22,477 bases of DNA. Origin: a virus. A model generated the notes under the pieces. The model saw only the letters and a list, made by a program, of their open reading frames with translations, was not told the DNA's origin and did no database searches. A program made the translations under genes and the position numbers. The stretch spans positions 1 to 22,477 of the IMG/VR virus record IMGVR_UViG_3300010885_041673. One strand, written 5' to 3'. Positions 9,027 through 22,477 of the stretch are shown here, in pieces; positions within the stretch are counted from its first letter, which is position 1; the number at the start of each line of letters is the position of its first letter.

Positions 9027-10061
9027 TCAAAGCTTACAAGCCATACAATCATTTTCCTCTTCAATGACATCTATTGTAGCAGGAACCAACTCTGAGTTCA
9101 CAGTATTCTGGTTATCTAGAACACTCTTGGCACCTGTTTTGTTTATTAACGAATAGTATATTGTCTTTAAACCATACTTGTGAGCCAGCATCAGATTCTT
9201 GGCGATCAGTGTTCCTGGCACTTTACCATCAGCAAAGTGCTTGGGTGAATAGAATGTGTTGGTACTGATGCTTTGGTCAATATACGCAGCTAGCACTGCT
9301 GCTGTTTTCAAATAATCAATACAGTCAGTTTGATCCCACATCAGTTGGTAACGATTGCGCAGTCTCTTGTATTCTGGCACAACCTGCACAAAGCTGCCAG
9401 CCTTGCTTTCCTTCACTGAAATCAGTTCCATAGGCATTTCAATGCCATTGGTGCTGTTCAAGGCAACGCTACTGCTTTCTACAGGTGCAACTGCCATAAG
9501 CGTAGCGTTGCGAATTCCATATTGCTTTAATCTTTCACGCAGAGTTTCCCAATCAAGTGTCGGTGTGAAATCCGTGAGTGTATCAACATTTGCATTGCGA
9601 CGTTCCCATGGGAACACACCACGACCATACCAAGTGTTGGCGCTGCGTTCACAAGCACCGCGTTCTTTGGCTAGGTCGATACTGGCTTCTGTGAGATAAT
9701 AAGCCTGATGTTCCATGAATCGCTTGACCATGGCTAATGCTTCTGGTTCACCGTATTTCATGTTGCGCTTGGCTAGAAAAAAAGCAAGATTAGTGATACC
9801 AATGCCTAATGGTTCAAAGTCCTTATTTGCCAAACGACTTTGTACACTGAGAAAATCTTGATAGCCCAGCAGATTACTCAGACTGCGCACCAAGATTCTG
9901 CAAGCCTTGCGCATTTCTTGCGGATTTCGGAAACTTCCCCAATTTATTGAGCCGAGTGTGCATAAAGCCACTCTGCCCTTTTCTTCTTCAATTTCGTAAT
10001 ATTCGTATTCATCATCTAACTCCTCAGGTAGACATTCTATTTCTTCATACAGTTCGTTCAT
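9027..10061 (-). CDS. nrdA: Class Ia ribonucleotide reductase large subunit, C-terminal half (NrdA-b)
   Basis: A 344-aa protein matching the second half of NrdA, from the second active-site Cys (Cys34 in VALCTLGSINWG, E. coli Cys462) through the radical-path tyrosines (YYSLINKTG, residues 302-303, E. coli Tyr730/731) to the C-terminal redox pair (Cys339, Cys342 in DCMACKL, spaced CxxC rather than CxxxxC). It starts with its own ATG and a TTTGGAG ribosome site 7 bp upstream. The first 28 residues carry 14 acidic and one basic side chain and do not match ordinary NrdA. The first half of the enzyme is encoded separately at 11008-12474, and the two must assemble to work. Its ATG overlaps the stop of the upstream mini-gene. 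Confidence 0.93.
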   Translation of the reverse strand: MNELYEEIECLPEELDDEYEYYEIEEEKGRVALCTLGSINWGSFRNPQEMRKACRILVRSLSNLLGYQDFLSVQSRLANKDFEPLGIGITNLAFFLAKRNMKYGEPEALAMVKRFMEHQAYYLTEASIDLAKERGACERSANTWYGRGVFPWERRNANVDTLTDFTPTLDWETLRERLKQYGIRNATLMAVAPVESSSVALNSTNGIEMPMELISVKESKAGSFVQVVPEYKRLRNRYQLMWDQTDCIDYLKTAAVLAAYIDQSISTNTFYSPKHFADGKVPGTLIAKNLMLAHKYGLKTIYYSLINKTGAKSVLDNQNTVNSELVPATIDVIEEENDCMACKL

Positions 10062-10193
10062 TTTTCAACTCCAAAATGTTCTTTAATCTCGTTAATAATA
10101 TGGTTGACATCATTAGGTGGAGCCCAATCAAACCGATTTCCCGATCTGTGCGTTTTCAATTAAATTGATATAGTCTCTTATATTTTTGTTCAT
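10058..10193 (-). pseudogene. Frameshifted mini-gene between homing endonuclease and nrdA-b
   Basis: An ATG at 10193 overlaps the endonuclease stop (ATGA) and reads MNKNIRDYINLIENAQIGKSV to a TGA at 10128. In the +1 frame the text continues as GNRFDWAPPNDVNHIINEIK, EHFGVEK and stops in an ATGA overlap with nrdA-b. The two parts look like one small phage protein of about 44 residues, broken near an AAAA run around 10150. Removing one A would join them. It may be a true frameshift mutation, a sequencing or assembly error, or a programmed shift. Function unknown. The overlaps at both ends suggest it was once part of the coupled unit. Confidence 0.5.
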
Positions 10194-10954
10194 ATTCTCT
10201 TTCCGTATTTTGTGATTAGGTAATAACTTTTACCTGTTGCGTCTTTTGCTTCTGCAATACTGTCATATACAATACCATCATACTCAATTTTTACTGCTTT
10301 GGGATGATCGCCACCTTTAACAGCCAATTCTTTTAGTTGTTGACTTCTTTCTTCTTTAGTCATAAAAACATATTCAACAGGCTCATATACTACATCACGC
10401 TTGTTGGTTAACTTTTTACATTTATAACCTTTATACATACTCTTTCTGCCACGAGCAACCGCACTCATAGCACTTGCATTTAAGTTATGTTGACGACAGA
10501 ATTCAAGCATATTAATAATCAATAAAACTTCGTTAGCAGGAGTGATAACTTCCCATTCATCTGCTAATTTAAGTTTTTGCTCAACTTTCATTGCTTTACC
10601 TTTGTTACTAATTTCTAGACCATTTGCAAATCGTTGTTTTCTAGATTCAGATATTTTAGGACCATTACCGCAATCACCTCCACCTGCATTAGGAGCGATA
10701 TTATAATACAATGAACTTTTAGCACACTTATATGTGTCCAAATAAAATTGTTCTCTTAATAAGATATCTTCCTCTTTTTCAATGTATTCTACTATTATTC
10801 TTTCAAAATTTTCAATACCGTATTTTTTTATTGCATTTCCGAACCGTTTTCCGCTACCGGTATATCCATCGTCTATAGTACCTTTATGTGATCCCAAATA
10901 CTTTATACCATCTATTTTATTTGTCCATTCATATATAAAACCTGAGTAGTTCAT
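10190..10954 (-). CDS. GIY-YIG homing endonuclease inserted in nrdA
   Basis: A 254-aa GIY-YIG family endonuclease. The nuclease domain occupies about residues 4-95: GFIYEWTN and YLG (residues 19-21) form the GIY-YIG core, with YTGSGKRFGNAIKKYG containing the conserved Arg and Glu68 (LLREQF) the likely metal-binding Glu. Residues about 133-180 (EWEVITPANEVLLIINMLEF, then LNASAMSAVARGR and GYKCKK) and 218-250 (KAVKIEYDGIVYDSIAEAKD) are NUMOD-type DNA-binding modules. It probably cleaves an uninterrupted nrdA and copies itself there. It has its own GATAAATA promoter and AGGAGG, so it is a free-standing gene rather than an intron ORF. It is full length and appears intact. Confidence 0.92.
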   Translation of the reverse strand: MNYSGFIYEWTNKIDGIKYLGSHKGTIDDGYTGSGKRFGNAIKKYGIENFERIIVEYIEKEEDILLREQFYLDTYKCAKSSLYYNIAPNAGGGDCGNGPKISESRKQRFANGLEISNKGKAMKVEQKLKLADEWEVITPANEVLLIINMLEFCRQHNLNASAMSAVARGRKSMYKGYKCKKLTNKRDVVYEPVEYVFMTKEERSQQLKELAVKGGDHPKAVKIEYDGIVYDSIAEAKDATGKSYYLITKYGKRI

Positions 10955-11007: not shown

Positions 11008-12474
11008 CTATCTGGCTTTTCTAATGGATACAATATCTGTTGATATATTTTTCATAAACTTATCTATATTAGTTTTCTTAACTTTGATTAGTTTTTTCTT
11101 AGGTTCTAACCGTTGGAACGGCTTGGTGGGCAGCAGAATCTCTTGACACAAATTGCTTTGATAAATTGGATCTGTTTCTGTGTCGAATGGCCCTTGGTTG
11201 ATCACATTATCGATATTGACCAAATAAATACGACCAGTGTCAGTGCGTTCCTTGAGAATACCGTTCTTGAATATTTCTTCAGCACGAACAGTTTTCTTTT
11301 TTATCTCAGGCGTTGTTTCATATTTGACATACAGTTCTTCAAATCTCTGAGTATCACGATAAAAGGCTTCATATAAATCAGGCACATCGTGTGGGTCAAA
11401 CAGTGTGATGTTTTCACCGTTCTTATAGCGGCGCCAAAACATTGCATTGACAACAACACTATAATCCATTTGACGAACACGAGTTTCTTCTGTGCCTTGA
11501 TTGTTTTTCAGCACGATCAAATCTTCAAACTGATAATGCCAAATTGGAAAAGTCACCGTGCAACTTGCATTGCGCAGGCCACCCTGGCTGCAACTGCGCA
11601 GATCAGCAAACCATTTTTTCAAGAAGGGAATCAACCCAGTATGCTTGATTTCACCGTTACGAATCGGTGCACCCACTGGTCTGATCCTGCCTATTTCTAG
11701 ACCAATGCCTGCGCGTTTACTGGCATACTTGGCCATCATCTCGCCAGCAGCAAATATACTGTCCAGAGTATCATCACTGCTTATCAACACGCAACTGCTA
11801 AATTGCTTAGTAGGTGTGCCTAATCCTGCCAAAACTGGAGTAGCCAGCGTAAAATGGCCTTCACTAGCGCATTCATAATATTCTTTGACTAATTTTAGTC
11901 GAGTATCAGCAGATTCAGCGTGAAATGCAGTGGCAGCAGCAACAGCATAACGTACCTGAGGTGTTTCATAAATTTGACCAGTAGCTCGATTCTGAACCAA
12001 ATACTTTTCAGTCAACTGAGCAATAGCAGCATAAGCGTAGTTTTCATCTTTGCTGTGGTCTATAAACAAATCAATGATATTCCATTCATCTTCTGTATAC
12101 CATTGCAGCAATTCCGGCGTGTACATGCCGACTTCTACGTTGCGACGCACGATTTCATATAATTTGGGCGGATCATACGTACCATAAACTTCTTTGCGTA
12201 ACATGCTAACTCGCTGACGACCAGCAACATACTGATAGTTGGTGTTGTTGATTTCAGGATTTTCTGATTCATCAATCAAATTCACCATTGCTTTCAATAA
12301 TAGTTCGTCAATAACTTCAGTGCTGATGCCATCATGTAGTTCGATCTGAGCCTTGATTTCAATCATACTGGGACTCACACCTTCTATGCCTCTGCAATCA
12401 TGGGCTACTTGTCTTTGAATTTTGCTGATGTCTAATGGAACACGCTCACCGTTGCGTTTGATAACTTGAATCAC
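11008..12474 (-). CDS. nrdA: Class Ia ribonucleotide reductase large subunit, N-terminal half (NrdA-a)
   Basis: A 488-aa protein. Residues 1-90 form an ATP cone (IQVIKRNGERVPLDISKIQ) for allosteric activity control. The catalytic barrel follows, with the first redox Cys228 in FSSCVLI (E. coli Cys225) and N441/C443/E445 in NLCQE (E. coli N437/C439/E441, the thiyl-radical site). Homology ends at LPTKPFQRLE (residue 457). The last 31 residues are foreign and basic (KKKLIKVKK, then RKAR; 11 basic, 2 acidic). The start codon is GTG, with GAGG about 10 bp upstream; no ATG fits. The second half is encoded at 9027-10061. It follows a conserved hypothetical gene by 15 bp. Confidence 0.93.
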   Translation of the reverse strand: MIQVIKRNGERVPLDISKIQRQVAHDCRGIEGVSPSMIEIKAQIELHDGISTEVIDELLLKAMVNLIDESENPEINNTNYQYVAGRQRVSMLRKEVYGTYDPPKLYEIVRRNVEVGMYTPELLQWYTEDEWNIIDLFIDHSKDENYAYAAIAQLTEKYLVQNRATGQIYETPQVRYAVAAATAFHAESADTRLKLVKEYYECASEGHFTLATPVLAGLGTPTKQFSSCVLISSDDTLDSIFAAGEMMAKYASKRAGIGLEIGRIRPVGAPIRNGEIKHTGLIPFLKKWFADLRSCSQGGLRNASCTVTFPIWHYQFEDLIVLKNNQGTEETRVRQMDYSVVVNAMFWRRYKNGENITLFDPHDVPDLYEAFYRDTQRFEELYVKYETTPEIKKKTVRAEEIFKNGILKERTDTGRIYLVNIDNVINQGPFDTETDPIYQSNLCQEILLPTKPFQRLEPKKKLIKVKKTNIDKFMKNISTDIVSIRKAR

Positions 12475-14524: not shown

Positions 14525-14950
14525 TTATGCGTTTCTTGCTGCTCTCTTTGCCATGCTAGAAACAGTTTTTTCTGGTGCAGTTTTAATCGCGTCAGCAGCA
14601 TCGCCAGTTTTTGGCATTTCATCAGTGGGTTCTATTGGGTTGATAAAGACATATTTAATGCCTTCGTCATTATCTTTGATATCTCCGATTAGATTTTGAA
14701 CTATTTGATTGTTTTTCTTGGCATACATCAATGCATCTAAATCAAAGGCTTCCCCGCCTGGTTGTGATTTTACTAATTCTACCAGCGCATCCACACGAAT
14801 CTTTGGTATTTCTGCGTGTTCTGCGTTGAATTGCAATTCATGCAAAATATTAACCAACGCAGTATCTGATATACGTTCAGCATCGTCTTCAATGTAGTCG
14901 CTGAGTTCGCGATCTTCGTTGATCGCTTTGATTATTTCTCTAAAACGCAT
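14525..14950 (-). CDS. Conserved phage hypothetical protein paired with scaffold-like gene
   Basis: A 141-aa mostly helical protein: MRFREIIKAINEDRELSDYI, LVNILHELQFNAEHAEIPKI, RVDALVELVKS, NNQIVQNLIGDIKDNDEGIK and YVFINPIEPTD. No catalytic motif is seen. The N-terminus has the M(R/K)..EI pattern resembling a T4 capsid-targeting peptide, with INE|D as a poor cleavage site. Its ATG overlaps the upstream stop (TAATG), so it is coupled to the 229-aa virion/scaffold-like gene and may be a partner of it in head assembly. The tail is Ala/Lys/Arg-rich, suggesting nucleic acid contact; that is inference. Confidence 0.6.
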   Translation of the reverse strand: MRFREIIKAINEDRELSDYIEDDAERISDTALVNILHELQFNAEHAEIPKIRVDALVELVKSQPGGEAFDLDALMYAKKNNQIVQNLIGDIKDNDEGIKYVFINPIEPTDEMPKTGDAADAIKTAPEKTVSSMAKRAARNA

Positions 14951-17421: not shown

Positions 17422-18522
17422 TTACTGGTTAACGACTCTGCCTGCGAAGTTTGCCGCGCTAAACACGCCACGATTGACTAATTTAATTATTCCAGACGGA
17501 GTATTGATAACAAAACCTTCACCTTTGGGTTGCCCATCAACAAATTGTTCGATGCCACGCACTTGGGGTTCTAGTTGTTCTAAAATGCCTAGTTTAAGTT
17601 GATAAATTTTAGTCCAAATTTCTTTGATGCCTTGTACCGCTGTTTGATTCTCTACAGCAGTTAAAATAGCATATTGAGGCTTTGTAAGCTTACTTGCTAA
17701 CCAATTATCATCAACAGGTTGATTTGTTATCAATCGATTATAATATGTTTGCAGTGAGCTTTTACTTGACGCAGTTAAACTAGTCAATAATGAATCTGCT
17801 GCAGAACCATATTTTTTTATTGCTTGATAAGCAGCTTTTACCAATTGCACTGGTTCTTTGACGCCAAATTTAATACCGAGATTTCCTGTTAAAATAGCAA
17901 CAGTTTTAGAAGCAACTAATCCTCCTGCACCATTTAAAGGCTGTTTTCCTACCAATGGGCTTTCTTTGGATTGTTTTTCTAGATCTGACCCGTAAGTATG
18001 TACAGCAATACCAATTTGTCGCCCAGCAATTTGTTTACCTAAGTCTGATTTTGAATCCACTGCATAAGTTACGCCATGTGGATTAGCTTTAAATACAAAC
18101 TTACCTTGCTGTGGCTGCAGTGCTGCTGACCACATTAGGTCGCCCATAACAAAACCTTTAAAACTGGCTGGCACTATCGTGCTTAATGGAGTAAAAATTT
18201 CTGCTAGCTTGTTTGCAAGCTCCATGTTTTTTTGTCGATCAGAAAAAAACTGCAATAACTCTTGGGGCGTAGTGACTTGACCGCCAACGTCAGCTATGTA
18301 TTCTTTATAATTCATGGTGAATTTTCCATCAGCTGATCTTCTACCAAAGATAATGGCTGGAAATCCATCCCACTTAATAGTCACTGCATCTGGACTGCTG
18401 ACTGCAGCCACAATGCCATCCACAGCTTGTTGAGCAGATTGACTACCTTGAAAAATAAAATCTTCAGGGTGAGGTGTTCTAGCACCTTCTGTTAACGTTT
18501 GAATAAACTCAAATATTTTCAT
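17422..18522 (-). CDS. KxDG ligase-like protein (resembles phage family DUF6267), possible virion protein
   Basis: About 366 aa from the ATG at 18522; the longer frame begins at TTG. Motifs resemble covalent nucleotidyltransferases (DNA/RNA ligases, capping enzymes): motif I VTIKWDGFPAIIFGR with the candidate nucleophile Lys50 in KWDG, then FVMGDLMW (about 124-131, like motif III), GEGFVI (334-339, like motif IV) and IIKLVN (about 345-350, like motif V), ending in FSAANF. I recall the same order in a T4-like phage family, DUF6267, of unproven activity. The first residues, MKIFEFIQTLTE|GA, resemble the T4 capsid-targeting peptide with an (L/I)xE|(A/G) cleavage site. It overlaps the upstream nucleotidyltransferase gene by 14 bp. 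RNA or DNA joining is inference. Confidence 0.65.
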   Translation of the reverse strand: MKIFEFIQTLTEGARTPHPEDFIFQGSQSAQQAVDGIVAAVSSPDAVTIKWDGFPAIIFGRRSADGKFTMNYKEYIADVGGQVTTPQELLQFFSDRQKNMELANKLAEIFTPLSTIVPASFKGFVMGDLMWSAALQPQQGKFVFKANPHGVTYAVDSKSDLGKQIAGRQIGIAVHTYGSDLEKQSKESPLVGKQPLNGAGGLVASKTVAILTGNLGIKFGVKEPVQLVKAAYQAIKKYGSAADSLLTSLTASSKSSLQTYYNRLITNQPVDDNWLASKLTKPQYAILTAVENQTAVQGIKEIWTKIYQLKLGILEQLEPQVRGIEQFVDGQPKGEGFVINTPSGIIKLVNRGVFSAANFAGRVVNQ

Positions 18523-19537
18523 CTGCAAACATTGCCTTTACGTAATCCAAACCCTGCATGATCTTGCGCTTATCTTCTTCAGCACGAGCAATAGCCTCCG
18601 GAGTTGAAGCTTTATCTCTTTTTTTAGCATTGATTTCTTTAACAGCTTTGGATTCATAATTTTCCCAAAATCTGTTTAAAAAATCTATTTTGTTACGATA
18701 GTTAGCTAAATCTCCCTTGCCGTACATATTATTCATTTGAAAACTTTCAGCCATGCCTTTTATCGCTTTGGCAAGATTGCTGATCTTGATTTCATCAACA
18801 TCACTGCCTGGATACTGCTTTAATAGACCAGAGATTTTAGGATTTTGAATACCTGCCATTTCAGCTTCGTGTTTGAAAATATCCAACACAAAATTTTCAA
18901 TATCGGTGGTAAGAGTGACCAATTCATAATTCTTACGAGTAGTAGAATAAGGCTGCTTGACTCGATCTCTGACCTTAAATTGAACACCAGCGTGTTGAAT
19001 ACTCATGGTCAACATCTCACCTAATACACTGAACATGTTGCCGTTCAACAAGCCTTTTAATCCGCGCTCAGGAGTAACACGATAACGTCCCCATTTTTCT
19101 AATCTTTGTGGATGAATCATCATGTCAACCTGGACCCATGCATCATCTGCTATTTTTAAAATAGGATGTCCAGCCTCACTATCAGAATGTATGTAATCCG
19201 GACGGGTTTCTTTGACAAATTGATCTGCTAAATTGTACCATTCAGATTGCATCTGACTTGTAGTTTTATTTTCTGTACCCGAATCAGGCACCACAATCTG
19301 AAGATCAATGTCACCGTAAATTTTATCTTCAGGGTCTACATCATGATATGTACTGCTGCCTGTTGGGGCACCCATTTTAACTGTGTCGAAGCCTTTCTTT
19401 TGAAGCCAATCATTGAACTCAGAAATAAAATGTTGCATTTTATGCAGAGCAATTTTGACAACTTTTGGAGTGACAACTGTCTTTTGAGTTACTTCAGTAT
19501 CCCACCCACCTTCTGATATTATTTCATGAAATCTCAT
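18509..19537 (-). CDS. Polymerase-beta-type nucleotidyltransferase, possibly virion-packaged
   Basis: A 342-aa protein. It has the signature of the pol-beta nucleotidyltransferase fold: a Gly-Ser pair (G60-S61 in GAPTGSSTYHD), then GDIDLQIVV with Asp76 and Asp78, and a third Asp138 in AWVQVDMMI. The gap between GS and DxD is longer than usual. After about residue 240 the protein is helical and charged. It starts MRFHEIISE|GGWD, which fits the T4 capsid-targeting peptide and prohead-protease site IxE|G. Its ATG overlaps the stop of a second, unrelated-looking nucleotidyltransferase. The substrate is unknown; tRNA, nucleotide or antibiotic-like transfer are all possible for the fold. Confidence 0.75.
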   Translation of the reverse strand: MRFHEIISEGGWDTEVTQKTVVTPKVVKIALHKMQHFISEFNDWLQKKGFDTVKMGAPTGSSTYHDVDPEDKIYGDIDLQIVVPDSGTENKTTSQMQSEWYNLADQFVKETRPDYIHSDSEAGHPILKIADDAWVQVDMMIHPQRLEKWGRYRVTPERGLKGLLNGNMFSVLGEMLTMSIQHAGVQFKVRDRVKQPYSTTRKNYELVTLTTDIENFVLDIFKHEAEMAGIQNPKISGLLKQYPGSDVDEIKISNLAKAIKGMAESFQMNNMYGKGDLANYRNKIDFLNRFWENYESKAVKEINAKKRDKASTPEAIARAEEDKRKIMQGLDYVKAMFADENI

Positions 19538-20289
19538 ATTTTATCCAATAAATTTCTAAACCAAACAGCAGTACCAATTCGGCGTGATTCATGTAGTTTA
19601 ATTAGTCCTTTGGCTTCATCATCTCGTGCTTGGGATAGTTTGGCATCTCTGTCAGGGTCGCTTGCCAATGCTTGCAATATAGATTTTACACTGTCTAAAT
19701 CCGAAGGTTTAGCATCTTTATTCAGCAGTATTTTGGCAGCATCAGCACGATTGTCAGCGACCACAGTGTTGTCATCTCTGCGCATGACTTTGCCAGCAAA
19801 TGCGTCTGTTTTAAGACCAAGAAATTTACCTATGCTGTTTAGCAAAATAAACAAATGTGCAGCTTTGAAATCAGGATCTTTATACATACCACGAGGACCA
19901 TGTTGATGCCAGTCTGCTACACGCTTGGCATCTACTATCACCATTAGATCTACTTGGGCACGACGTTCACCGCCTGGCGTGTTATAAGGCACTTCAACGT
20001 GAACATTTCGGCCTACAGTTTTAGCAAGATAGCCTTTGTGTTTCATGAATGCTTCTAATTCTTTTTTGGCTGATTTTTCATCAGCAGATTTGAAATAACT
20101 CATGACATCATTGGCATCTAAGAAAATGTCTATATCACCGCTTTCTACTTTATAGCCAGCAGAACCAATATCAGCAACTGAGGCAATTTGACTTGGCAGT
20201 TCTGACTGAACTTTTTTGACTATGCCGTTGATGTATTCTCGTTTGACTGCACCGTCGCCGAATACATTTCCGCTTTCCGTTAATTTCAT
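19534..20289 (-). CDS. Polymerase-beta-type nucleotidyltransferase
   Basis: A 251-aa protein with a typical nucleotidyltransferase signature: IGSAGYKVESGDIDIFLD (G42, S43; Asp52, Asp54), and a third carboxylate in RRAQVDLMVIV (Asp114). The GS-to-DxD spacing is the usual one, unlike the neighbouring 342-aa protein. A segment with HGPRGMYKDPDFKAAHLFIL follows. It starts at the ATG at 20289, overlapping the upstream stop (ATGA), and its N-terminus, MKLTE|SG, has only a weak match to the packaging/cleavage pattern. Two such enzymes plus a ligase-like protein in one coupled unit suggest a shared nucleic-acid task. Substrate unknown. Confidence 0.78.
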   Translation of the reverse strand: MKLTESGNVFGDGAVKREYINGIVKKVQSELPSQIASVADIGSAGYKVESGDIDIFLDANDVMSYFKSADEKSAKKELEAFMKHKGYLAKTVGRNVHVEVPYNTPGGERRAQVDLMVIVDAKRVADWHQHGPRGMYKDPDFKAAHLFILLNSIGKFLGLKTDAFAGKVMRRDDNTVVADNRADAAKILLNKDAKPSDLDSVKSILQALASDPDRDAKLSQARDDEAKGLIKLHESRRIGTAVWFRNLLDKI

Positions 20290-21992
20290 TGGCTTCTAGC
20301 CTTCTTCAATTTCTTGCAAAAATTACTATATTCGTTTTCTTCATGAATATATTTTTTTGCGATTAAATTTTTATTTTCATATGCGCCAACGGCTAATCCT
20401 AATGCTTGTTTAGCTGCCATAATATCTGGTAACCTAATTTTGTTCTCTGGTGTGCCTGCAGCTAATTGATCTAGAACCTTGGCTACTGCTTCAGGAACAG
20501 CGTTGCCGGAATCGTCTAGCCATTTTCTTGGTACATAAACTTGAAATATAGGCTTTTCTTCTACATCTGCCTTAACTTGAAATATAGGCTTTTCTTCTTT
20601 ATCTACCGATGCTTCAGCTGGAATACCCATATTCTTGTACAATGTATCGATAATCGTTGGATCCACGCCCACATCTTGTAAAACTTTGTGTATTTTAACA
20701 CTGTCTGTTGGATTGCCAGCTTTCTTTAGAGCTTGTTGCAATTTATCTGGTGTAACTTTTTGAGTTAGATTTTGACCTTTGGTTTTGAGCCAATTACCAA
20801 TGCTACCGGTGATATCTTTGAGAGCTTCGTTTGTTAGTTGGAAACCGTTGCGTGGTTTTCCCAGAGTTTCATTCAAATGCCACATCTTAATGGTAAGGTC
20901 GCGATCAATATATTTCTTTGGATTGAAGAATATTGATTCTTCAAAGTCTTCAACGTTCTCACGAGAACTAGCAGTGGACACTTGCTGCTGGGCAGTCAAT
21001 GCCTGCCCGGATGCGAATTCGCGGGCTTGCCGCAGGGACTGTAATTGTTCCGGCGTATAAAGTTCTTGAGGCACAGGTTTCCTGTCAATTTCGACCGGAA
21101 CGTCACCAACTAATCGTGCATTATGGTTAAGACCATTCAATCCCATCCTCTCAGCAAAATCGTTAATAAGCGCAGAGTCAGCTTCTGATTTAGCAGCACC
21201 GCGTTCCAGCTGGCGACGAGATGACTCCCACCGTGTATCAGATTCTGGCGGTTGTTCGCTGGATTGTTGATCAGCATCAGATTTTCCTTGCGTCTGATCC
21301 AGTGCACCACTGACTGCTGCACCAGCCATATTGCCTAATGCACCACCTGCTGCGCCAACAACTGCTCCGGCAACGCCTGATTTTAATGCTGATTTCCAAT
21401 CTTGACCTTGTAATTTAGCAGCAGCTATTGCCAATAAACCGCCGGTGACGCCACCAGCCAATGCTGCTCCAGCAGGACCGGCAAACATCATTCCGAGTTT
21501 ACCGGCAACAGGCGCTGCTGCACCACCAATAGCAGCCAAAATCATTTTTTGTGCCATCGGTGATTTCATGCCTTGTTGGATCATCTGCATAGCAGATTTT
21601 TTAGCTGCTGGATCTTTAATATTATTGACTGCTGCTGTTGCCTTACTTTCAAATTCGCTGACTTTGCCAGCATCAGCTGGCGGTAGCTCATCATAAAACT
21701 TTTTCTTTATAGCGTCTGGTAATAACCTGCCTACCTTAGTAGAATTAGGGAGGTATGCTTGTGTAGCTTGAGCAGCAACGATAACTAAACGATTTATTTG
21801 TTCTTGTGATAACTCTGCTTCTGTCAAAAATACATTTTCAGAAAGATATTTGATATATGGCACAACAAAATTTTCGTGCATATTTTTAAGATATCGTTGT
21901 GTTAAGCGATCTGTGTTGCTGCCTAAATTTTCAAATAGTTCTAGACTATGTTGTTCTGACAACATTTGTTTTATAATTGTTTTCGTATTCAT
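20286..21992 (-). CDS. Large protein with Gly/Ala hydrophobic core, possible ejected virion protein
   Basis: About 568 aa, starting at the ATG at 21992 (MNTKTIIKQML), chosen for a GGAAAAG ribosome site and because the longer frame would overlap the upstream gene by 38 bp. The N-terminal part is helical and holds FLTE|AE (residues 55-60), a good (L/I)xE|(A/G) prohead-protease site. Residues about 151-230 are very rich in Ala and Gly (AAIGGAAAPVAGKLGMMFAG, AGAVVGAAGGALGNMAGAA), like glycine-zipper membrane segments. After this come Gln/Ser/Glu-rich linkers and two copies of a KPIFQV motif near 490. No enzyme motif. A pore-forming or internal virion protein is possible but unproven. Confidence 0.6.
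   Translation of the reverse strand: MNTKTIIKQMLSEQHSLELFENLGSNTDRLTQRYLKNMHENFVVPYIKYLSENVFLTEAELSQEQINRLVIVAAQATQAYLPNSTKVGRLLPDAIKKKFYDELPPADAGKVSEFESKATAAVNNIKDPAAKKSAMQMIQQGMKSPMAQKMILAAIGGAAAPVAGKLGMMFAGPAGAALAGGVTGGLLAIAAAKLQGQDWKSALKSGVAGAVVGAAGGALGNMAGAAVSGALDQTQGKSDADQQSSEQPPESDTRWESSRRQLERGAAKSEADSALINDFAERMGLNGLNHNARLVGDVPVEIDRKPVPQELYTPEQLQSLRQAREFASGQALTAQQQVSTASSRENVEDFEESIFFNPKKYIDRDLTIKMWHLNETLGKPRNGFQLTNEALKDITGSIGNWLKTKGQNLTQKVTPDKLQQALKKAGNPTDSVKIHKVLQDVGVDPTIIDTLYKNMGIPAEASVDKEEKPIFQVKADVEEKPIFQVYVPRKWLDDSGNAVPEAVAKVLDQLAAGTPENKIRLPDIMAAKQALGLAVGAYENKNLIAKKYIHEENEYSNFCKKLKKARSQ
20538..20598 (-). repeat. 25-bp direct repeat, period 36 bp, in the large Gly/Ala-core gene
   Basis: Bases 20538-20562 and 20574-20598 are identical (aacttgaaatataggctttt...). 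The period is 12 codons, so the protein gains EEKPIFQV twice in frame. The perfect match suggests a recent duplication. Confidence 0.85.
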
Positions 21993-22017: not shown

Positions 22018-22477
22018 TCATGGATTATATGTAAACGTTTTTCCACCAAACGCATTGGGTGTAAGTTTTGTACCTGGCGCTGGTGTTACAGGTGCAGCAG
22101 GCGTAGTTGTACCTGGCGCTGGTGTTACAGGTGCAGCAGGCGTAGTTGTACTTGGAGATGCTGCTCGGCCTGCTGCACTCATACCTGCTAGCATTGCATT
22201 GCTGGCTGCAGATTTTTGTGCCTGGCGGCGTGCTGCACTCATACCCGGTACCATCTGATTGCTGGCTGCAGTTGTCTGTACTTGTTGCGCTGGCTGCGTT
22301 GTTTGGCTTCCAGCGCTGGGTGCTGTAGTTTGTGTTTGGCGATAAGCGTTGGATGCATTTGCATTCATAGCCTGACCTACAACTTGCGTTATGTATTTGT
22401 TGACTGATTTTTGATCTTCTATTTGATCTGTTGCTGGATCAACTATTATTCCAGCTGCTGCTGGATCAGGTACATCA
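22018..22477 (-). CDS. Ala/Pro/Thr-rich repeat protein (partial, cut by right edge)
   Basis: The frame is open to the right edge; an internal ATG at 22368 is unlikely to be the true start because the same frame continues upstream (VPDPAAAGIIVDPATDQIED). The visible part has near-copies of 'SNxMxxGMSAAxRxA' (at about 75 and 96 residues from the edge) and PAAPVTPAPGT twice near the C-terminus, ending GGKTFTYNP. Low complexity, no catalytic motif. It stops 26 bp before the next ATG, so it heads the block of putative virion proteins. The role is unknown. Confidence 0.6.
   Translation of the reverse strand, partial: DVPDPAAAGIIVDPATDQIEDQKSVNKYITQVVGQAMNANASNAYRQTQTTAPSAGSQTTQPAQQVQTTAASNQMVPGMSAARRQAQKSAASNAMLAGMSAAGRAASPSTTTPAAPVTPAPGTTTPAAPVTPAPGTKLTPNAFGGKTFTYNP
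22070..22147 (-). repeat. 39-bp tandem repeat, two copies
   Basis: Two identical 39-bp copies (gtacctggcgctggtgttac...) at 22070-22108 and 22109-22147, followed by a partial third. The unit is 13 codons and encodes TTPAAPVTPAPGT-like repeats in the C-terminus of the partial gene. Confidence 0.9.

Follow-up and report, generated by a model that had tools for sequence, protein, structure and literature searches.

A nucleotidyltransferase cassette with T4-like targeting tags as probable head cargo of a T4-related phage

The virus record IMGVR_UViG_3300010885_041673, whose 22,477 bases make up the window analysed here, is a fragment of a large T4-type myovirus and carries a cassette of four overlapping genes whose products are probably head cargo, that is, proteins that are tagged, cut, packed and injected. 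The genes all lie on the minus strand, as do their features located below, and their open reading frames (ORFs) overlap by 4, 4 and 14 nucleotides in the order GA (20286-21992; 568 residues, with a Gly/Ala-rich core), NT2 (19534-20289; 251 residues), NT1 (18509-19537; 342 residues) and LIG (17422-18522; 366 residues, a DUF6267 protein), NT2 and NT1 being putative Pol-beta-type nucleotidyltransferases (NTases). In T4, gp21 cuts after L/I-x-E, and a capsid-targeting sequence of 10 residues suffices for packaging (PMC9026906; PMC3012670). We envision a scenario whereby each protein of the cassette starts out with a short N-terminal tag, similar to this sequence and ending in a gp21-type site, L/I-x-E followed by G, A or S. 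Through this tag the protein would be recruited to the prohead core, where the prohead protease would cut the tag off; once mature, the enzymes would share the head with the DNA and be injected with it into the bacterium, an entry with which the Gly/Ala-rich protein may help. Packaging is well supported, if indirectly, by the conserved tag and site, by predicted disorder of the tag, by sites at the junctions of fused relatives, by a T4-type protease in relatives and by virion mass spectrometry of cyanophages.

A conserved propeptide and cut site

The putative propeptides are MRFHEIISE/G in NT1 (19508-19537; the slash marks the predicted cut) and MKIFEFIQTLTE/G in LIG (18484-18522), and NT2 starts MKLTE/S, with a predicted prohead-protease site at residues 3-6 (LTE/S; 20272-20283) that reads LxE/GGN in relatives. 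With the residue after the cut included, the tag-like peptides are MRFHEIISEG and MKIFEFIQTLTEG. Cultured relatives have comparable starts on their DUF6267 proteins, MINFSKYITE/D in Methylophilales phage Melnitz and MMKFTQFLAE/S in Stenotrophomonas phage DLP6. Both the NT1 and the LIG propeptide have the features of head-cargo propeptides, namely a length of about 7-19 residues, an M-K/R start, a hydrophobic core and an L/I-x-E site at the end. When non-redundant genes from 269 related sequences were scored, [LI]xE[GAS] occurred within residues 1-35 in 77% of LIG, 81% of NT1 and 91% of NT2 proteins and in 16% of other genes, the corresponding values for the control region, residues 36-70, being 5.5%, 2.9%, 1.7% and 6.8%; the cut sites exceed chance. 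A stricter T4-like tag was found in 48/68 NT1 homologues (71%), 17/145 LIG and 2/115 NT2 proteins and in 100 other genes, against 3/1474 internal M-K/R sites. Elsewhere the N-terminus diverges, yet tag and cut site stay conserved; NT1 proteins with longer, differing N-terminal regions still keep the tag. In the AlphaFold models, a predicted local distance difference test score (pLDDT) below 50 is confined to the tag (residues 1-14 of LIG, 1-10 of NT1). Enzymes of this kind do not bear the tag as a matter of course: five canonical Rnl1/Rnl2 genes of related jumbo phages lack it.

The overlapping ORFs bear out the translational linkage claimed by the initial annotation, and the peptides it quoted are letter-exact in NT1, LIG, NT2 and GA. 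Its placement of cut sites at or near the N-terminus holds for NT1, LIG and NT2 but not for GA, whose site occupies residues 56-59. The gene order that it proposed to look for in related phages is kept: NT2-NT1-LIG recurs in 48 distinct loci and NT2-LIG in 73, with a median gap of -4 nucleotides, and synteny extends to genes downstream of the cluster. The gene directly before NT2 varies among phages; most of 44 examples start with M-K/R, many with the same tag. The reading of these features as packaging signatures survived each test, on indirect support.

How might such a site behave inside a longer protein? Several relatives fuse the enzymes to one another and to a HIGH-type cytidylyltransferase (CTase), in the orders CTase-NT2-DUF6267 (L229), NT2-DUF6267-CTase (L218 and L050) or DUF6267-CTase (others), with LxE sites preceding the NTase and DUF6267 domains; in L229 the sites before the last two domains read LLVE/GGNVF and MLLE/AASARIQHPED. 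Where more than 75 residues stand before a DUF6267 domain, LxE is directly upstream of it in 10/10 cases; it also lies directly before the core in 122/142 N-terminal DUF6267 domains, and the control rate, from windows within mature DUF6267, is 7.4%. Given this placement, the protease would therefore release separate enzymes. In the 260-kb record G015, protease, candidate scaffold and capsid genes are followed by an NT2-DUF6267-CTase fusion of 874 residues, with no other long forward ORF between it and the capsid gene. This protein contains exactly two [LI]xE[GAS] sites, one at the N-terminus and one at the NT2/DUF6267 boundary, a placement that, as read from the sequence, matches what processing by the head protease would predict. 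A cytidylyltransferase-like Pfam model matches 4-5 times in each of the large records G005, G006 and G007.

Head genes and virion proteins of related phages

Among 15 large related records, Peptidase_S77 was found in 6/15, Gp23 in 8/15 and the T4 portal in 6/15, and the capsid proteins of these relatives have LxE near residue 42. Published virion mass spectrometry of two cyanophages bears on whether such tags accompany packaging. In S-CREM2, for which 52/219 proteins were detected (PMC10665884), 4/4 annotated proteins with a looser form of the tag are in the virion list (a SAM hydrolase, gp13, a kinase and the cytidylyltransferase), and the Fisher p of 0.003 is optimistic because the looser pattern was fixed after two of the S-CREM2 matches had been seen. 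In S-SZBM1, against a background of 30/218 detected proteins (PMC9146016), 1/3 tagged proteins was detected, again the cytidylyltransferase, and the untagged DUF6267 protein adjoining it is absent from the virion list. The two phages together have 5/7 tagged proteins in virions, including the cytidylyltransferase whose relatives fuse to DUF6267; this enzyme is also present in S-SM1 virions (PMC3037559). A further virion protein of S-CREM2, the Cas9-annotated gp12 (L279, 7704-10313), has a tag-like stretch, RFASFMAE/A, near residues 18-25, where the sequence perhaps offers an alternative start.

Several points weigh against packaging as we propose it. The phage of the window is known from its sequence alone, the window includes neither a prohead protease nor a capsid gene, and the virion evidence comes from other phages; that its proteins are packaged, cleaved and injected, and on which substrate they act, we infer. 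The tag argument is statistical. NT2 and LIG proteins often carry the LxE end alone, without the full tag, and some DUF6267 proteins (S-WAM1, S-SZBM1) have no tag. The strict pattern matched none of the annotated S-CREM2 proteins, 2/3 tagged S-SZBM1 proteins went undetected in virions, the mass-spectrometry enrichment rests on small samples, and the S-CREM2 and S-SCSM1 authors caution about carry-over of abundant proteins (PMC10665884, PMC9602691). Finally, DUF6267 lacks a ligase match by profile or by PDB fold.

The cassette enzymes and their neighbours

Both NTases named by the initial annotation have complete and invariant catalytic motifs. NT1 contains GSSTYH..YGDIDLQ..VQVDMM, of which the GSS...YGDIDLQ part (19304-19360) and the third Asp, D138 (19124-19126), are invariant in 50 sequences. 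Its AlphaFold model (pLDDT 90.5) was compared with the PDB by Foldseek, and all 50 matches listed belong to the Pol-beta superfamily (best E 2e-3), among them Pol beta, Pol lambda, CdnC, DncV, TUTase and cGAS; motif of the hG[GS]...DxD...D type and modelled fold thus both support a Pol-beta-type NTase. For NT2 the same assignment is supported by the motif, GSAGYKVESGDIDI..AQVDLM, in which G42, S43, D52 and D54 of the GSxG...GDID element (20128-20166) and the third Asp, D114 (19948-19950), are invariant in 47 sequences. The profiles of NT1 and NT2 match each other (E 5e-5). The window NT1 and NT2 had no family match, profile searches with LIG, NT1 and NT2 against PDB sequences gave nothing credible, and a weak AbiEii match appears in 2/16 members of the NT2 family (best E 0.0034).

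LIG is a clear member of DUF6267 (PF19782, E 1.7e-34, 120 bits against a curated cut-off of 27; phrog_455, E 3e-29), a family present in 462 phage records and given no function in the PF19782, phrog_455 and T4-GC 71 entries of these libraries. The initial annotation had called it a KxDG ligase. The motifs KWDG, GDLM, EGFV and KLVNR are present, with the KxDG, EG and near-C-terminal K expected of a ligase or other covalent nucleotidyltransferase: K50 and D52 of K50-W-D-G53 (18364-18375), which resembles motif I of these enzymes, are invariant in 78 sequences and G53 is conserved in at least 90%, and E335, G336 and K347 are invariant in the motif IV/V-like stretch E335-G336-F-V...K347-L-V-N-R351 (17482-17520), which aligns weakly with LEGFVVRF..KLK of Rnl1. 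Profile and fold searches, in contrast, recovered no ligase. Foldseek with the LIG model (pLDDT 89.9) found no PDB match at E<=0.001, and in BFVD it found DUF6267 and cytidyltransferase-type viral proteins, with RNA and DNA ligases at E 0.08 or worse; the Pfam tally of 78 DUF6267 proteins had no ligase family among the matches listed; and hhalign of DUF6267 with Rnl1 and Rnl2 from related phages was not significant (Rnl1 probability 2%). The structural search suggested earlier for both enzyme types has hence yielded a Pol-beta fold for NT1 and no ligase fold for LIG. Because the PDB search, the Pfam tally and hhalign gave no confirmation, the ligase name is a lead only, and the conserved motifs make LIG probably a covalent, ligase-like nucleotidyltransferase.

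The predicted site of GA (...VFLTE/A, residues 56-59; 21816-21827) is followed by a conserved helix start, xLSxEQIxxL, and LxE precedes the same Q[IVL]xx[LIVF] motif in 12/44 proteins at the GA gene position; the GA start also carries MNTKTIIKQMLSE/Q. Relatives of GA (L003, L012, L033, L034) combine the same C-terminal domain with a peptidoglycan-binding LysM domain, and its weak, low-complexity PHROG matches are to internal virion and tape-measure proteins. A membrane-active partner, as first suggested, is one role that GA might play. Downstream of the cluster, a further gene (o14525; 14525-14950, minus strand) is tagged (MRFREIIKAINE/D), its relatives starting MRIKDIILE/S and similarly. Upstream of GA, a gene cut by the window end (22018-22476, minus strand) encodes a low-complexity Pro/Ala/Thr repeat protein, a relative of which (in L031) starts with the tag-like MKYNEFSSVQE/G. 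The same tag occurs on GH19 chitinase-like, amidoligase-like and weakly GNAT-like proteins (tagged genes of L092, L071 and L023), and such proteins suggest that head cargo is varied; a nicotinamidase-like reading of two tagged genes was dropped for want of Pfam support.

Elsewhere the window encodes ribonucleotide reductase, a PAAR-like protein, glutaredoxin and more genes of large T4-type myoviruses. Two ORFs for the ribonucleotide reductase large subunit (9027-10061 and 11008-12474) flank an ORF of 254 residues (10190-10954) that resembles a GIY-YIG endonuclease, as for an intron or homing insertion. A DNA-level search of phages and a tblastn search of the phage collection with NT1 and NT2 found no match, and PADLOC returned nothing.

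Possible roles and relation to known systems

What might the injected enzymes do? Our leading guess, though one rather more apt to prove wrong than right, is that they transfer nucleotides to the ends of RNA or tRNA as infection begins, by analogy with jumbo phages, where Pol-beta NTases beside RNA ligases have been interpreted as an RNA-repair system (RlaP; PMC7824862). Alternatively, and this is a possible if not a probable reading, the packaged enzymes attack or modify the host, either by AbiEii/MenT-like nucleotide transfer to tRNA or by AMPylation of host proteins, in a role like that of the injected T4 ADP-ribosyltransferase Alt. The weak AbiEii match of NT2 would fit this, as would the precedent of Alt, which modifies host RNA polymerase (PMC9026906), and no T4-type RNA-repair kinase or phosphatase was seen beside the cluster. 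On the other hand, that a KxDG protein and a HIGH-type NTase keep turning up as partners suggests a pathway, and the jumbo-phage pairs just mentioned speak for repair.

A more basic objection is that these are early enzymes of the usual kind, synthesised in the cell and never packaged, the LxE peptide being part of the fold or a docking peptide unrelated to the head. In cyanophages the DUF6267 and cytidylyltransferase genes do lie between helicase/MazG and primase/ribonucleotide reductase genes, and the untagged DUF6267 proteins point the same way. We nevertheless consider this unlikely: a tag that is disordered in the LIG and NT1 models, that is kept before unrelated proteins and on NT1 with differing N-terminal regions, that recurs as LxE at internal junctions in 10/10 fusions and that is missing from the canonical RNA ligases of such phages is hard to reconcile with either role. 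A further reading, that the cassette supports synthesis or rescue of nicotinamide adenine dinucleotide (NAD(+)) when infection begins and that the HIGH-type enzyme is a nicotinamide mononucleotide adenylyltransferase (NMNAT), is quite improbable. In its favour, virion cytidylyltransferases of cyanophages are annotated NMNAT-like (PMC9602691; PMC10665884); against it, the window has no cytidylyltransferase, and it is not obvious what two Pol-beta NTases would do in such a synthesis.

Head cargo thus remains the favoured explanation. From a broader perspective, it is conceivable, on a judgement that is close to balanced but falls short of conviction, that T4-related phages in the environment equip their heads with a multi-enzyme kit for nucleotidyl transfer (Pol-beta NTases, DUF6267 and a HIGH-type NTase), sometimes as a polyprotein cut in the head by the prohead protease, for delivery with the DNA. 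If so, a short sequence tag would predict proteins injected by T4-related phages, the recurring cytidylyltransferase in cyanophage virion proteomes would be explained, DUF6267 would gain a cellular context, and here would be an instance of a phage head protease processing a polyprotein.

The nearest precedent is T4 itself, whose gp21-cut IPI-III and Alt (PMC9026906, PMC3012670) share with the cassette a short N-terminal L/I-x-E propeptide and non-structural cargo, T4-type head genes being present in the relatives; here the cargo consists instead of nucleotidyltransferases and DUF6267 that are conserved as a set, also occur in relatives as fused polyproteins bearing sites at internal positions, and are predicted to be packaged. 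A second likeness is to the virion cytidylyltransferase (T4-GC190) of S-SM1, S-CREM2 and S-SZBM1 and the NMNAT-like virion protein of S-SCSM1. The enzymes of S-CREM2 and S-SZBM1 are tagged, and the open-access papers on cyanomyovirus virions offer no targeting signal for them; in S-SZBM1, S-WAM1 and S-PM2 the cytidylyltransferase gene lies next to that of DUF6267, and relatives of the window have the two as a fusion, whereas the window has NT2 and NT1 in place of the cytidylyltransferase. For DUF6267 itself (PF19782, phrog_455, T4-GC 71), of which LIG is a clear member, tag and fusions add context. The RlaP/RNA-ligase system of jumbo phages (PMC7824862), finally, likewise sets a Pol-beta NTase beside a KxDG protein; unlike it, the cassette has no Pfam match to RlaP, to another repair NTase or to an RNA ligase family in NT1, NT2 or LIG, and is predicted to be delivered in the virion.

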